Program-made: the position numbers and the translations under genes | Notes under the pieces: generated by a model | What the model saw: the letters and a program-made list of their open reading frames with translations, nothing else | What the model was told of the DNA's origin: nothing | Databases searched by the model: none | Shown: one piece after another, positions 44,459 to 62,247 of the stretch | How the letters are laid out: every line of letters begins with the position of its first letter | How positions within the stretch are numbered: the stretch's first letter is position 1 | Source of the DNA: Planococcus sp. PAMC 21323 | GTDB lineage: Bacteria > Bacillota > Bacilli > Bacillales_A > Planococcaceae | Reading direction: 5' to 3' | NCBI RefSeq assembly: GCF_000785555.1 | Contig: NZ_CP009129.1 | Coordinates: 1,488,001-1,552,000 of the forward strand | Length of the DNA: 64,000 nucleotides

Positions 44459-44991
<533 letters not shown>

Positions 44992-57848: not shown

Positions 57849-58180
57849 TTAGTAACCTCCTGTTTATAGTGCATTTGTAAAATTTCTCTGCTAAAAGTAT
57901 TATGTGTTCTTTTAAAATTTTAAGTTACTATATCTTTCAAAATTCTATAATTGATCCTTTCATAGATTTTTTATACTATGTATATAGATTTACATATATT
58001 GTAATAGTTTTCCACTAAAATTACAACTAAGTTTATTGAATGATATTTATTCTATACTTCAATCATATCAATTCAGATGCTATTTTATATTTTATTGAGC
58101 GTCATTTTGCGTAAAACTTAATATCCCCTCACTTCTTGTTGAAAAGGATGCAGCGGGTTGTTACATTTTTTTAAATTATG
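57849..58180. other. AT-rich intergenic stretch
   Basis: About 330 bp without a plausible gene or RNA; many stop codons in all frames. Confidence 0.4.
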
Positions 58181-58230
58181 GTAACTCTATATAAATCCTA
58201 GTCATTGGACTAGGATTTATATAGAGTTAC
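58181..58230. repeat. Orphan perfect inverted repeat
   Basis: 23-bp perfect arms (GTAACTCTATATAAATCCTA-GTC and its complement) with a four-base loop (ATTG). No T-run follows on either side and no gene ends next to it. Its GTAAC...GTTAC ends recall, but do not match in the core, the palindromes found at 59.7-61.9 kb. Confidence 0.7.
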
Positions 58231-58349
58231 TTATTAGAAGATTTACATTCACTTAACCTAAATCGGAGATAAAAACAAATAATCTACTTCTTAATAAAAA
58301 ACTCTTCCAAGACATACGTTTCGATAAGTAATAACACTGAAATAAAATA

Positions 58350-58393
58350 GGATACTCTCAACAACAGCATGAATCTTGTTGAAGAGAATATCC
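58350..58393 (-). terminator. Probable terminator downstream of the DoxX gene
   Basis: GGATACTCTCAACAA / TTGTTGAAGAGAATATCC imperfect stem with an 11-nt loop about 80 bp after the leftward stop, followed by a T-rich tail on the minus strand. Confidence 0.55.
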
Positions 58394-58474
58394 TTTTAGT
58401 TATTTTAATTTATTGCTTTACTTGTCTTACATTAATCATCCAAGTCAAGCTACACATATTCTGAAAGTGAATTT

Positions 58475-58825
58475 TTAAAAACGTACGACTGCGACAAGTA
58501 ATGTCAAGCCAATAATGATCACATTAGTAACGATCGCTTTGTATTCTCCACGCTTCGCGTGAAATATCGTCGCAAACACCATAATCAGTAATAAACCTAG
58601 AGCCGCTAAGGGGGTTAAAATTGGCGCTATGCCTAAAGCAAGTGGCAGTATTAAGCCAATCCCTCCTAAAACCTCGACCATACCAATAAATGCAATAAAG
58701 CCCTTCGAATGATTGCTGACCCACGGCAGTGATTTTTTTGCCTTTTCATATTGTAACTTGGTCGTACCCGCACTAATAAAAAGTAATGCTAATAATCCTT
58801 GGATAATCCATAAAGCTATGTTCAT
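58475..58825 (-). CDS. DoxX-family membrane protein
   Basis: A 116-residue four-helix protein: IIQGLLALLFISAGTTKL, FIAFIGMVEVLGGIGLILPLALG, LTPLAALGLLLIMVFATIFHA and a last helix at the C-terminus, the DoxX/DoxD-like layout (GxxK in helix 1, E-x-GG in helix 2). Relatives are membrane partners of oxidoreductases. It is divergent from an HxlR regulator, which likely controls it. GGAGG precedes the ATG. Confidence 0.85.
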   Translation of the reverse strand: MNIALWIIQGLLALLFISAGTTKLQYEKAKKSLPWVSNHSKGFIAFIGMVEVLGGIGLILPLALGIAPILTPLAALGLLLIMVFATIFHAKRGEYKAIVTNVIIIGLTLLVAVVRF

Positions 58826-58948
58826 TTAATTTCCTCCTTGTTTCGAATCAACTACTAAGGCTATAATAAACCCTAGTAAACTTATTGAGAAGTAGGCACT
58901 TTAAAGTGTCATAGTATACAAAAGGATACCTATAGAGGAGGAATTTTA

Positions 58949-59317
58949 ATGGCTACTGAATGTAATGGCGGAATCGAAACAGCTCTTGATTTACTCGTTG
59001 GCAAATGGAAACCCGTAATTCTTTTCCACCTAATGAATAATGGCATTTTGCGTTTTAGTGAACTGCAACGCTCAATTCCCGGGATAACTAAAAAAATGCT
59101 GACTACCCAATTAAGAGAATTAGAATACCACAATATTGTTAACCGCAAAGTCTATGCGCAAGTCCCACCAAAGGTTGAATACTCAATTACCGAATATGGA
59201 AAAGGCTTAGCTCCTACTTTATTGTCTATGCATGAATGGGGTTTTAAACACTTGGAGCACTTAAATAAACTTTATGGCACACACTATGAAGATCAAATTC
59301 AAATAAAAAAGAGCTGA
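58949..59317 (+). CDS. HxlR-family transcriptional regulator
   Basis: A 122-residue winged-helix protein: GIETALDLLVGKWKPVILFHLM, then FSELQRSIPGITKKMLTTQLRELEY (recognition helix) and YSITEYGKGLAPTL (wing). Cys-5 lies at the position of the redox- or electrophile-sensing Cys in HypR/YodB-type members, so it may sense quinones or aldehydes. Divergent from a DoxX gene. AGAGGAGG precedes the ATG. Confidence 0.9.
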   Translation: MATECNGGIETALDLLVGKWKPVILFHLMNNGILRFSELQRSIPGITKKMLTTQLRELEYHNIVNRKVYAQVPPKVEYSITEYGKGLAPTLLSMHEWGFKHLEHLNKLYGTHYEDQIQIKKS

Positions 59318-59332
59318 TACTCACTCTTTTTA
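59307..59332 (+). terminator. Short hairpin at the HxlR gene end
   Basis: AAAAAGAG / CTCTTTTT, overlapping the stop codon, with a T-rich right arm; a small terminator. Confidence 0.5.
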
Positions 59333-59482
59333 TCACGATCCAGTTCTTGAAAAAATTTATTGTAATAAACTTTCCTATTAGCCTAGCTATGAATGAAAAA
59401 AGATATTAGGTAGATTTATTGAAACTGAATTGATTAACAAAACTAGAAACACCATATGAAATTGCTCTTAAAAAGAAAACTT

Positions 59483-59518
59483 AAACGCCTAACCAGTTTC
59501 CTGGTTAGGCGTTTTTTT
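59483..59518. terminator. Strong rho-independent terminator
   Basis: AAACGCCTAACCAG / CTGGTTAGGCGTTT stem, four-base loop TTTC and seven T. It is 165 bp after the HxlR gene; the gap between them has no gene. Confidence 0.85.
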
Positions 59519-59725
59519 GTACAAGAAGATTTACAAGTAAGGCAATAGGAAAACAAAGGTGACAAGCTTATACTTGAACCTCTTGCCTTTTGGTTGGCTG
59601 CGATATTTAAATTTTTATTCACTCAAGATACGATCTTGAAGCCTTATAATATAGATATTGAATGCATCAATTTTCTGCAACTTCAATTTTGCTGGTTTTT
59701 CTCGGGAATGCAATGGAATCTATGA

Positions 59726-59763
59726 TTTGAATGTAACTTAATTAGGATTAAGTTACATTCAAA
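59726..59763. repeat. GTAAC palindrome, copy 1
   Basis: Perfect 17-bp arms TTTGAATGTAACTTAAT / ATTAAGTTACATTCAAA with loop TAGG. First of five related palindromes within 2.2 kb; this one marks the left edge of the immunity-like array. Confidence 0.85.
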
Positions 59764-59775
59764 ACCATAATAAAA

Positions 59776-59791
59776 TGACTACCGGTAGTCA
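59776..59791. promoter_or_regulatory. Orphan TetR-type operator
   Basis: TGACTACCGGTAGTCA, a perfect 16-bp palindrome of the kind bound by TetR-family repressors. No tetR-type gene or intact target gene is next to it. Confidence 0.45.
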
Positions 59792-59800
59792 ATGAATGAA

Positions 59801-59938
59801 GGAGATGCGCTGTTTTTTAATAAATGGGGCTACATAGTAAGCAATAAGGAATACACTTATGGACCTGGATTAACTAAAGTCGTAATCTTTTGTGTACGCG
59901 AAAGAAAAAAACGCAAACACCTTTTTGAAGCTTTTTAA
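59801..59938 (+). pseudogene. Possible gene fragment downstream of the orphan operator
   Basis: A 45-codon open stretch without a start codon (ALFFNKWGYIVSNKEYTYG...REEKKR-like basic end, HLFEAF then stop). It may be the tail of a deleted gene once controlled by the operator at 59776. No family recognised. Confidence 0.25.
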
Positions 59939-60002
59939 ATTATCACTAGTTGATTATTTCCTTATATTTCTCAATGAAAATAAGGATAATACAAAGGAAT
60001 GG

Positions 60003-60045
60003 AAAAGGTTACCTACGGGATTCTCAATCCCTTGGGTAACCTTTT
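60003..60045. terminator. Hairpin terminator
   Basis: AAAAGGTTACC / GGGTAACCTTTT outer arms with an inner GGGATT / AATCCC helix and a T-run, immediately left of palindrome copy 2. Works best for rightward transcripts. Confidence 0.7.
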
Positions 60046-60081
60046 TGAATGTAACCTAATTGCTATTAAGTTACATTCAAA
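60044..60081. repeat. GTAAC palindrome, copy 2
   Basis: TTTGAATGTAACCTAAT / ATTAAGTTACATTCAAA, loop TGCT, one mismatch. It overlaps the end of the membrane protein gene that stops at 60077. Confidence 0.85.
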
Positions 60082-60399
60082 TTTGTCGTTCATTACCTAT
60101 ATGATCTCTTTTATTTTTAAAGAACTCCATAACAAGCATATTTATGAATGTGTTTATCGGAATGAAAAATAGTAACGTCACTATACCCATTGAATCAAAT
60201 AAACCTTCTGTCTGTTTATGAAAAGGTTGAACGTCCAATTTGTAAAGATAAGCCGAAGCAATTGAAAGGATAAGTGCGTTTACAAAAAAGACTGCCAAAA
60301 TTCTTGTCCATTTATTTGCTTTTTTTTTATCATCCAAATAGCTGCTAGAGAAGAAACAAGTAAAGAAAATAGAATAATTTCTAGAAATACTGGATGCAA
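60077..60399 (-). pseudogene. Small membrane protein gene split by a frameshift at an A9 tract
   Basis: AGGGGGG then TTG (60399) open a frame reading HPVFLEIILFSLLVSSLAAI then WMIKKK, one membrane helix and a basic turn, which runs out of frame at nine A (minus strand; T at 60320-60328). The next 86 codons, down to 60077, are open in the other frame (ANKWTRILAVFFVNALILSI..., then FDSMGIVTLLFFIPINTFIN). One extra A would join both into a natural three-helix protein of about 108 residues, similar in shape to YesK-like proteins. It may be a broken gene, a slippage-corrected gene or a phase switch. The downstream part alone could start at a TTG (60337) without a ribosome-binding site. Confidence 0.55.
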
Positions 60400-60433
60400 A
60401 TATGTCCCCCCTAGATTGATTTTGTTAGGAAAC

Positions 60434-60465
60434 GAATATAACTTAATTCATGATAAGTTACATTC
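60434..60465. repeat. GTAAC palindrome, copy 3
   Basis: GAATATAACTTA / TAAGTTACATTC with an 8-nt loop and one mismatch. It lies between the split membrane protein gene and the gene at 60545. Confidence 0.75.
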
Positions 60466-60544
60466 ACGTCCGATTTTTTCAATCGAAATAATTGGCTTAA
60501 AATCTACAATCCTAATGGTAATTAAAAATACAAACTTGTAAGTA

Positions 60545-60835
60545 TTAAAGGTAAACAGTCTTTCCAACTTCTTTGTAAGGAGATTTAATTACTTTCGCTT
60601 TGGCCCTCCCTTTTTTGAATTTCACATTATTTAACCATTCAACTATTTCAGGCGCAGCAAAATTCGGAATAGATTCTCCTACATCTTCATCTTCTATCCA
60701 ATATTTCTTATTCTTACTCTCATCGTGGAACCAATTTATCATTTCATCCGCTACTTTATTGATTTTTCGTCCTACCTTGGCTGAGCAAGAAATGTATTGA
60801 ATCATATCATTGCCAAAATCAAATTTCACAATCAT
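60545..60835 (-). CDS. Small soluble protein, immunity-like, function unknown
   Basis: A 96-residue protein starting MIVKFDFGNDMIQYI, with a helical middle (VADEMINWFHDESKNKKYWI), an acidic patch (EDEDVGES) and a basic tail (KKGRAKAKVIKSPYKEVGK). Size, charge pattern and neighbourhood fit small contact-toxin immunity proteins, but I do not recognise a family. AAGGAAG precedes the ATG at 60835. It is flanked by palindrome copies 3 and 4. Confidence 0.6.
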   Translation of the reverse strand: MIVKFDFGNDMIQYISCSAKVGRKINKVADEMINWFHDESKNKKYWIEDEDVGESIPNFAAPEIVEWLNNVKFKKGRAKAKVIKSPYKEVGKTVYL

Positions 60836-60862
60836 TTTTAACTTCCTTCTTTCCACAAATAT

Positions 60863-60892
60863 AATGTAACTTATTTACTAGTAAGTTACATT
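60863..60892. repeat. GTAAC palindrome, copy 4
   Basis: AATGTAACTTA / TAAGTTACATT perfect 11-bp arms with an 8-nt loop, between the genes at 60545 and 60905. Confidence 0.8.
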
Positions 60893-60904
60893 CGTTCTCA
60901 ACTT

Positions 60905-61273
60905 CTAACATATCTCAATTGATTTACAGGTAATCTGACAATCCATCATAGGGATAACCATTTTAACTTGATAAAGATGGACGTCTTCTACTAATATTTC
61001 TCTAATTGAGATGTCATGAAAATAGAAAGCTAAGTCGTGGGGGGATTGTGGAATATCTCCTTTTGCCCCTTCCAGCCAATTATTGAAGATGGTTGAAAAA
61101 CATTCTTTAAACAGAACGGTATACTCTCTTTCTTCGCCCTCAAAATCGCTTAAACCCATATATTTCATTGTCACTAAATGCTTGGTATGATCATAGTTTA
61201 AACCCTTTAATTCTGAATCAATATAGTGAGTAGCCATTAATTTCTCTTCGAGTTCTTGACCACTTAGTTTCAA
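60905..61273 (-). CDS. Soluble immunity-like protein, function unknown
   Basis: A 122-residue protein: LSGQELEEKLMATHYIDSEL at the start, a beta-rich middle with YTVLFKECFSTIFNNWLEG, and LYQVKMVIPMMDCQITCKSI at the end. The LxxxxYDHTKHLVTMKY pattern recalls Imm50-type proteins but this is only suggestive. TTG start (61273) with GGAGGT 8 nt upstream. In the same direction as its neighbours, between copy 4 and a degenerate half-copy near 61327. Confidence 0.55.
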   Translation of the reverse strand: MKLSGQELEEKLMATHYIDSELKGLNYDHTKHLVTMKYMGLSDFEGEEREYTVLFKECFSTIFNNWLEGAKGDIPQSPHDLAFYFHDISIREILVEDVHLYQVKMVIPMMDCQITCKSIEIC

Positions 61274-61343
61274 TCTTTATAACCTCCACTTCTAAACTTC
61301 AAATCAAAAATGCTGTAATTTTTCGGTTTTGAATGTATAAGAT

Positions 61344-61853
61344 TTATGGAATTATGAATCCCCATTCCCAGAATTTTGATCCCTGTGCGATGATAATTTT
61401 TTCAAGCCAATCTTCAAAGGTCATGCCAATGAACATATTATCTTCGAAGTTATAGCCAGTATCCATGACATAAAGATAGCCATTGCCTACCATTTTGTCC
61501 GTCACGATCAAATAACAGCCATCATATCCATAAGCAATCGGATACCAGTTATCAGGATAGTCATAGCCAGGGATAGCTCTGTGTTCCAAAACTTCATCTA
61601 CAGTAAAAAGTTCAAAGCCCCCACCATATTCGGGATGGTTGAAAATAAGTCCCCCATTATGCAAACGAAGAAACTCTTCGTAGTCTTTCGGTACATTAAA
61701 TGGCAATTTCTTCAGATCTTTTTCTGCTGCCGGAGGATTAAAGAGCACTTCCGCTTTCTCCAAATATCCCTCTTCCTGTTGAATTTCCAAAAGGCCATTT
61801 CTATCGAGACGCTTCTTCAAAGCTTCTAAAGTAATTTTTATCTTAGACATCAT
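61344..61853 (-). CDS. SMI1/KNR4 (SUKH) family immunity-like protein
   Basis: A 169-residue protein with the SUKH core: PAAEKDLKKLPFNVPKDYEE then FLRLHNGG near residue 60, FELFTVDEVLEH, and WYPIAYGYDGCYLIVTDK followed by GYLYVMDTG. SUKH proteins are the commonest immunity proteins of polymorphic toxin systems. No toxin gene is adjacent. GAGGGGGAG precedes ATG ATG. It is the first gene, in transcription order, of the palindrome-separated array; palindrome copy 5 lies about 40 bp upstream. Confidence 0.85.
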   Translation of the reverse strand: MMSKIKITLEALKKRLDRNGLLEIQQEEGYLEKAEVLFNPPAAEKDLKKLPFNVPKDYEEFLRLHNGGLIFNHPEYGGGFELFTVDEVLEHRAIPGYDYPDNWYPIAYGYDGCYLIVTDKMVGNGYLYVMDTGYNFEDNMFIGMTFEDWLEKIIIAQGSKFWEWGFIIP

Positions 61854-61893
61854 CTCCCCCTCCCCTCTAATTGCTTCTTTTTATCTTTAAAAC

Positions 61894-61927
61894 TGAATGT
61901 AACTTAACTGCACTTAAGTTACATTCA
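61894..61927. repeat. GTAAC palindrome, copy 5
   Basis: Perfect 14-bp arms TGAATGTAACTTAA / TTAAGTTACATTCA with loop CTGCAC. Right edge of the immunity-like array. Confidence 0.85.
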
Positions 61928-62167
61928 AATCCTAGTCTTTACTCAATTCTTTTCTATACTGCTTAGGTTGTTTTCATATTTTATCTTATGTAACTAAAAT
62001 CGAAGCTCATACATTAAATATACTTAGAATTTTAAAAAATAGCTAGATAATTCTGGAAATAAAACCATTCGTAAAAGTACACTTTTACAGACAAAAATGT
62101 TTGAAACAGCTGTTTTAGAAAGTAAATTTTGTCGCACCACAATTTTTGCTGCAAACATCAAAGCGTA

Positions 62168-62206
62168 AAAACACCCGCTCACTTTTGTTAAGTAAGCGGG
62201 TGTTTA
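62168..62206. terminator. Rho-independent terminator
   Basis: AAACACCCGCT / AGCGGGTGTTT with a 17-nt loop and A/T-runs; on the minus strand it ends the SDR gene. Confidence 0.8.
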
Positions 62207-62247
62207 AGATAGTACATAATAAATTTAGCTGTCAATCTAGCTGTGAC

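Follow-up and report, generated by a model that had tools for sequence, protein, structure and literature searches.

The window analysed here, a stretch of 64,000 nucleotides (nt) from Planococcus sp. PAMC 21323 (contig NZ_CP009129.1, positions 1,488,001 to 1,552,000), contains an array of 32-base-pair (bp) palindromic sites, each with a 6-bp core, the cores falling into four classes that follow one another in a largely fixed order. The segments between the sites behave as cassettes: one and the same cassette turns up in different arrays, its neighbours to the left and right being unrelated, and the switch occurs at the sites. We consider it likely that these are recombination sites bounding swappable cassettes in a system resembling the dif modules, in which the core acts as the address of a slot. 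The elements of the array are:

61895..61926, minus strand: A-class site, array head, core GTGCAG
61327..61342, minus strand: decayed site, of which a half-arm remains, TATACATTC on the minus strand
60862..60893, minus strand: C-like site, core TAGTAA, one change from TAGCAA
60434..60465, minus strand: B-like site, core CATGAA, two changes from TGTGAA
60047..60078, minus strand: C-class site, core TAGCAA
59729..59760, minus strand: D-class site, array end, core TCCTAA
59655..59726, minus strand: array-end module, or tail, of about 75 bp beside the D site, ending in the half-arm-like GATGCATTC

A preliminary description of the window had listed five copies of the palindrome and a degenerate half near position 61327, and both are there. 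The 12-base arm, allowing at most one mismatch, has ten matches in the window, all inside the five copies; the number expected by chance is 0.63, and no shuffle out of 100 got to ten. A narrower pattern searched for in the window had no match. All five copies have the same anatomy, a 12-bp arm, exactly 8 bp and another 12-bp arm. As for the half, a cassette block 97% identical to another genome stops at about window position 61335, and at the position of the decayed site the other genome has a B-class site with two arm changes. The junction homologous to the site at 60862..60893 is also C-like in another genome (L133:14710). The coordinates of the tail are converted from an nhmmer match at L020 7727-7656 (E 2e-10), a copy that belongs to the training set of the model used.

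Sites of this kind are neither confined to the window nor evenly spread. With at most three mismatches, the genome of the window has 35 site places, in six clusters by our grouping, and the reversed pattern, used as a control, has none; from one genome to another, cassettes differ at these boundaries. A search of 261 genomes of the family gave matches in 46 of them: 45 of the 46 genomes of the window's genus, understood here as Planococcus in the broad sense and delimited from the matches, and one of the 215 others. Fifteen plasmid records match the region, all from Planococcus, and each of the 14 that were fetched has at least one site. A scan of named genomes for A-class sites yielded 57 stretches, selected by the presence of such a site, all from Planococcus or Planomicrobium but for one 11-kilobase (kb) contig titled Gracilibacillus boraciitolerans (L028, NZ_BAVS01000052.1). 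That contig carries an A, B, C array whose A-B cassette is 97% identical to a cassette of P. wigleyi (L054), by interfamily transfer or by assembly contamination. Three plasmid arrays (L083, L085, L092) lie within about 10 kb of annotated defence-type genes (Qat, NB-ARC, AlwI restriction, ABC-three component). To see whether the arrays could come from phages, we compared the window region with a phage collection and looked for the exact site pattern in IMG/VR; neither gave a match. Among the papers listed in our searches, which covered open-access literature but neither subscription journals nor preprints, none deals with arrays of this kind in Planococcus.

The classes and their order can be read from the sites with at most five arm mismatches, 283 in all, of which 239 distinct ones match a class with no more than one mismatch: 83 have core A (GTGCAG), 63 core B (TGTGAA), 43 core C (TAGCAA) and 50 core D (nnCTAA). 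Part of the sharpness of the classes is built in, as they were defined on the arrays that came to light first. In the logo of the 239 sites the 12-bp arms hardly vary, and the middle opens with A or T and mostly closes with T. Neighbouring sites with both cores classed form 174 pairs, counted without pairs in opposite orientation or more than 3.5 kb apart, and with 38 more pairs holding an unclassed core: 153 go forward in the order A-B-C-D, nine are equal, all of them D-D, and twelve go backward, six of these ending in A, the start of a new array. Repeated cores are avoided. Adjacent sites share the same core in one pair out of 278, against 38.6 expected when cores are dealt over the arrays and 5.97 when they are shuffled within arrays (P 0.009), and any core at all is repeated in 12 of 92 arrays.

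The last site of an array, usually D, is followed by the tail, a conserved module of about 75 bp. A model built on 34 copies downstream of D sites gives 92 matches, duplicate records being kept: 87 fall within 60 bp after a site, nearly all of them at most 8 bp after it, and five have no site in reach. The sites that precede the 87 are 58 D, 15 C, 13 B and one unclassed, where D is favoured by the choice of the training copies.

The cassettes are short and mostly hold one gene. In a first set of 198, the median length is 496 bp, and a simple caller finds exactly one open reading frame (ORF) in 151, several in 27 and none in 20; the main ORF runs from head to tail in 143 of 178. When the six arrays of the window's genome are compared with the other fetched loci, skipping the edges of fetched stretches, the blocks at least 90% identical have 60 ends, 30 of which lie within 8 bp of a site, where 2.4 are expected, these ends not being independent of each other; the suggestion in the preliminary description that the palindromes are cassette boundaries is thus supported. 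An example is the 496-bp A-B cassette common to loci L052 and L065, 99.8% identical in the two: identity changes at the edges of the sites, and the 100-bp flanks, at 0.44 and 0.43, are no more alike than random sequences (mean 0.48).

Whether a cassette keeps its slot depends on how far its copies have diverged. We compared pairs of cassettes with both flanks unrelated, and counted those in the same slot, in different slots, and ambiguous. At an identity of at least 0.94, the counts are 11, 1 and 6; between 0.85 and 0.94, they are 7, 5 and 0; between 0.78 and 0.85, 2, 11 and 3; and between 0.60 and 0.78, 0, 14 and 4. Because seven of the first eleven same-slot pairs come from one A-B family, the counts were redone with one vote per family and with class C widened to take in TAGTAA: they become 11, 5 and 3 for the 19 families at 0.85 or above, and 1, 13 and 1 for the 15 below. 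Strict slot inheritance was rejected, since cassettes also change slot, and both flanking cores then differ. A 95% identical cassette, for instance, lies in slot A-B of L025 and in slot B-C of L051, each time between the two cores of the slot it occupies, so the core belongs to the position in the array. It is because near-identical cassettes keep their slot, and adjacent sites avoid the same core, that we read the core as an address. Both features would fit an exchange between sites of the same or nearly the same core, as far as sequences can tell: a core-matching recombinase would delete direct core repeats, so their avoidance would follow.

The arrays also have a preferred orientation on the chromosome. 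A dif-like site was found in 45 of the 46 genomes of the genus, and the window has its own:

44611..44638, plus strand: candidate chromosomal dif site, about 15 kb from the array

Over 13 chromosomes, that of the window and twelve others, 58 of 59 A-class sites have their head-to-tail direction toward dif, and so do 41 of 42 arrays when the sites are grouped by hand, a count that assumes the origin of replication to be opposite dif; the sole exception among the arrays is in genome G002. Baselines come from 20 stretches sampled in the window's genome, where transcription follows the direction of replication in 177 of 240 genes and in 23 of 30 runs of at least three genes; the bias of the arrays, orthologous ones kept, has P of about 4e-5 against the gene baseline and of about 2e-4 against the run baseline. 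The third of the chromosome closest to dif holds 30 of the 42 arrays, some chromosome lengths being rounded. PMC11023631 describes a comparable orientation rule relative to replication for sedentary chromosomal integrons.

On small plasmids, the arrays come with a recombinase. The common plan of these plasmids is a series of cassettes, the end site and its tail, a tyrosine recombinase of 187 amino acids (aa) and a replication gene; several of them also have a MerR-like gene, at the A end. The recombinase gene is downstream of the end of the tail; its start is about 0.2 kb from the end site in many plasmids, and up to about 1.1 kb in L072. The enzyme belongs to Phage_integrase (PF00589, E 1.2e-21), and the residues R-K-H-R-H-Y, the catalytic motif set of tyrosine recombinases, are invariant in ten sequences. 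It occurs in 20 of the 46 genomes of the genus, as close copies in 18 and only as 33-38% matches in two. The genome of the window has four other PF00589 proteins (L101-L104), outside its six array regions by coordinates, two of which may be XerC and XerD. Relatives of the recombinase are found on 830 plasmid records, 558 from Enterococcus and 85 from Bacillus, and in IMG/VR (7 loci, one with a similar single site). We examined 700 bp upstream for 13 relatives, and in three of these a single similar site precedes the gene by 101-138 bp:

L106, Macrococcus: recombinase relative with 47% identity, one similar upstream site
L111, Planococcus element: 67% identity, one similar upstream site
L163, viral contig IMGVR_UViG_3300045996_004580: 66% identity, one similar upstream site

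In L163 and L111, a half-arm stands about 75 bp further on, tail-like when judged by eye. As to plasmid structure, contig G021:C4, of 22,457 bp, reads as a circular multimer in which a 7-kb plasmid occurs twice and one of 8.4 kb a single time; the 8.4-kb plasmid also exists as a separate contig, G021:C3. This fusion was dropped as decisive evidence, its crossover interval taking in about 326 identical bases, and the record pPA05-1 is simply a dimer.

The anatomy, classes and order of the sites, the cassette boundaries, the keeping of slots by near-identical cassettes, the avoidance of repeated cores and the linkage of the recombinase to the tail are thus results of computation. They can be joined in a proposed mechanism. 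The palindromes would be double-stranded core sites of a tyrosine recombinase of the Xer kind, in which two nearly identical arms, in inverted orientation, enclose a crossover core of 6 bp. They would cut the DNA into mostly single-gene cassettes, in arrays that run from A to B to C to an end site, usually D, with its 75-bp tail; on the small plasmids, end site and tail would be the resolution site of the 187-aa enzyme itself. By this scheme, the plasmid enzyme would cut the sites, and cassettes would move between plasmid and chromosomal arrays through two crossovers, one at each bounding site. For Acinetobacter, PMC13141974 and PMC11705084 report recombination between sites whose cores are identical or almost identical. 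If partner cores should match here as they do in Acinetobacter Xer sites, a cassette would normally return to a slot with the same pair of cores. A rare mismatched exchange may place it in another slot, and the direct core repeat that results would be deleted, so that arrays would stay ordered and almost free of repeats; the need for a core match and the making of order by repeat deletion are proposed partly by analogy with those pdif reports. The broader proposal, that of an address-coded exchange platform, would have a genus-wide pool of mostly single-gene cassettes traded between plasmid and chromosome by the plasmid recombinase, with four ordered cores as addresses, repeats removed by deletion and arrays locked to the terminus; we give it an even chance of being right.

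Several observations weigh against such a scheme. Some arrays are out of order (L024, L027 and L068, for example), and two stretches, L049 and L136, have sites in mixed orientation. With looser classes, five of the six ambiguous pairs of cassettes at 0.94 or above count as changed and one as kept, which brings the totals to 12 kept and 6 changed. The recombinase was not found in the genome of the window, despite its 35 sites. For seven of the 13 relatives, there is no similar site within 700 bp upstream; L108 and L109 have other palindromes there, and L112 a weak likeness. The tail model has no match in L163, L111 or L106 at E 0.01. The predicted structure of the recombinase is too poor to use, with a mean predicted local distance difference test (pLDDT) score of 45. 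The crossover in G021:C4 lies in the D site or in the identical stretch beside it, so that homologous recombination is possible there. Finally, recombination at the sites is itself something we infer from computation.

The agent of recombination could also be the host. Each arm matches the XerD arm of Acinetobacter pdif (PMC13141974) at 9 of 11 bases, and that of E. coli dif at 9 of 11 as well; against the corresponding arm of the local dif the figure is 7 of 11. Because of these XerD-like arms, the host proteins XerC and XerD stay a rival of the plasmid enzyme, acting as they would for Acinetobacter pdif modules. Their case is helped by the presence of the sites in 45 of 46 genomes where the plasmid enzyme is in just 20, and by the crowding of the arrays toward dif. 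But the two arms resemble each other, the local dif agrees with them on its XerC side at only 5 of 11 bases, and three relatives of the plasmid enzyme have a similar single site beside their own gene, so we hold host recombination to be possible and rather doubtful. One may also do without any active site-specific enzyme: homologous recombination at 32-bp repeats would move the segments, and the order would be inherited. Two sites of one class can indeed have all 32 bases in common, such events could account for the plasmid fusion, and the enzyme was not found in 26 of the 46 genomes. What makes this explanation improbable is the fixed 12-8-12 geometry with its variable middle, the conserved tail and the adjoining recombinase, together with the entry of cassettes into slots whose cores differ from their own, the shared sequence then being limited to the arms.

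Two further explanations give the palindromes another nature. They could fold as single strands and be recombined like the attC sites of integrons, a reading that the mostly single-gene cassettes, the end module and the orientation of 41 of 42 arrays relative to replication, as in sedentary chromosomal integrons (PMC11023631), would suit. But a folded 32-nt palindrome would give the duplex of one arm only, the adjoining enzyme of 187 aa is shorter than integron integrases, attC sites are longer than these sites, and we find the integron-like reading very improbable. They could instead be transcription or RNA signals of a polycistronic locus, the cassette pattern being a by-product; sites do lie between genes that mostly share one direction (179 of 239 ORFs), and the leaders of cassettes are not enriched in promoters resembling those of sigma-A. 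We give hardly any credence to this, for the palindromes have no GC-rich stem or T-run, and the ordered 6-bp cores, the exact exchange boundaries and the linkage to a recombinase speak against signals. A shared regulatory site, as the preliminary description put it, is not needed as an explanation; it may be an added role. Its small mobile palindrome is a poor fit to ordered clusters with four core classes. The fixed geometry, the order of the cores and the boundaries of exchange also led us to reject ordinary terminators, dispersed repeats and an array with a purely regulatory function.

We now turn to the contents of the window array, which lists as follows:

57850..62247, strand not assigned: insertion in which the array lies with a DoxX-like gene and an HxlR regulator, missing at this place in six relatives examined
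61344..61853, minus strand: cassette gene, SUKH-1 (SMI1/KNR4), 169 aa, PF09346 E 1.4e-11
60905..61273, minus strand: cassette gene, 122 aa, no Pfam match above cut-off
60545..60856, minus strand: cassette gene, 96-103 aa depending on the choice of start, no Pfam match above cut-off
60077..60337, minus strand: cassette ORF, 86 aa, with a TTG start, called a split membrane protein in the preliminary description
59761..60046, minus strand: C-D segment, no ORF by the simple caller, inverted repeat at 60003-60045

Each small gene had been thought to be bounded by one palindrome. This is mostly so, except that the SUKH and 122-aa genes are parted only by the decayed site, and that the segment 59761-60046 has no ORF by the simple gene caller. 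Parts of the array recur elsewhere: another SUKH-1 protein is in an A-B cassette at L078:2454-2981, the cassette of the 122-aa gene is 97% identical to L133 14711-15182, located there between B and C, and that of the 86-aa ORF is 92.7% identical to L136 10383-10805. The window array lies between ptsI and SDR, which adjoin each other in the six relatives (L127-L132), in stretches without sites. The DoxX-like gene and the HxlR regulator, at window positions 58475-59317, are next to the array, and a 98% identical stretch at another place in G002 is also adjacent to an array. What G002 and the window share there is the pair of DoxX and HxlR genes with the tail and the D site; past D, the DNA differs.

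The cargo of the cassettes is varied. There are 239 cassette ORFs in 157 families, with a median of 116 aa; representatives of 114 of the 157 families were scanned. Matched families number 62 in Pfam, 27 in PADLOC and 119 in NCBIfam, with at most two proteins per family among the 25 listed of each. The matches listed include SUKH, WapI-like proteins, parts of toxin-antitoxin systems, HTH, NUDIX, redoxin, signal peptidase and many DUFs. With families so mixed, at most two proteins each among the best 25 of the 62 Pfam families, the polyimmunity locus of the preliminary description is not supported as the defining function: immunity-like genes are one part of a mixed cargo, though some of the DUFs may be immunity proteins. 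One of the 114 proteins matches models of FosB/FosM-type fosfomycin resistance (E 1.2e-79).

A scan for sigma-A-like promoters found no enrichment in cassette leaders, in what is a weak test. Short leaders have 3 in 89 (10.5 expected from shuffles) and long leaders 7 in 38 (7.9); cassettes of opposite orientation have 4 in 40 (10.3), the 150 nt upstream of A have 15 in 85 (19.8), and control genes 34 in 120 (24.2). Such a result would fit expression by read-through.

How does the system compare with known ones? The pdif/dif modules of Acinetobacter plasmids (PMC13141974, PMC11705084) also have two arms of about 11 bp, a variable 6-bp core and a XerD-like arm, form small gene-carrying modules, and are associated with plasmid fusions at the sites. 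In pdif modules, however, one arm is of the XerC type and the other of the XerD type, and neighbouring sites alternate in orientation, whereas the Planococcus sites have both arms alike and share one orientation within an array, with L049 and L136 as exceptions; it is for these two reasons that we do not call them pdif modules. The Planococcus system further differs by its four core classes in fixed order, with a head and a tail module, a small adjoining plasmid recombinase, and chromosomal arrays across a Gram-positive genus. Integrons, including the sedentary chromosomal ones (PMC11023631), share the mostly single-gene and mostly co-directional cassettes, the varied cargo, a special end module and the fixed orientation relative to replication. 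By contrast, the Planococcus sites are short, near-perfect 32-bp palindromes with two arms rather than attC sites, and their cassettes appear to be addressed by core and slot; since no IntI stands beside the array, the adjoining plasmid enzyme being of 187 aa, we do not call it an integron, although in its working it would resemble integrons and pdif modules alike.

There is also a likeness to the sites next to small tyrosine recombinases on plasmids of Bacillota, where three relatives have a core site upstream of the gene. Those sites would resolve plasmid multimers, and the Planococcus site differs from them in being multiplied into an array that holds cargo. In engineered cassette exchange with heterospecific lox or FRT sites, two sites that differ in their core steer a cassette into a single slot; the Planococcus system is natural, has four addresses, and its arms are Xer-like.

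Integrons, the best-known platform for gene cassettes, are mostly Gram-negative. If the proposal is true, Planococcus would have a cassette platform in a Gram-positive genus, made by multiplying a resolution-type site of plasmids. The written code of four ordered 6-bp cores would make the rule that a core match decides the landing slot directly testable, and the system would supply natural sites with distinct cores together with a compact enzyme of 187 aa. It would also help to explain how a pool of small genes, many of unknown function, is shared among the species of Planococcus.

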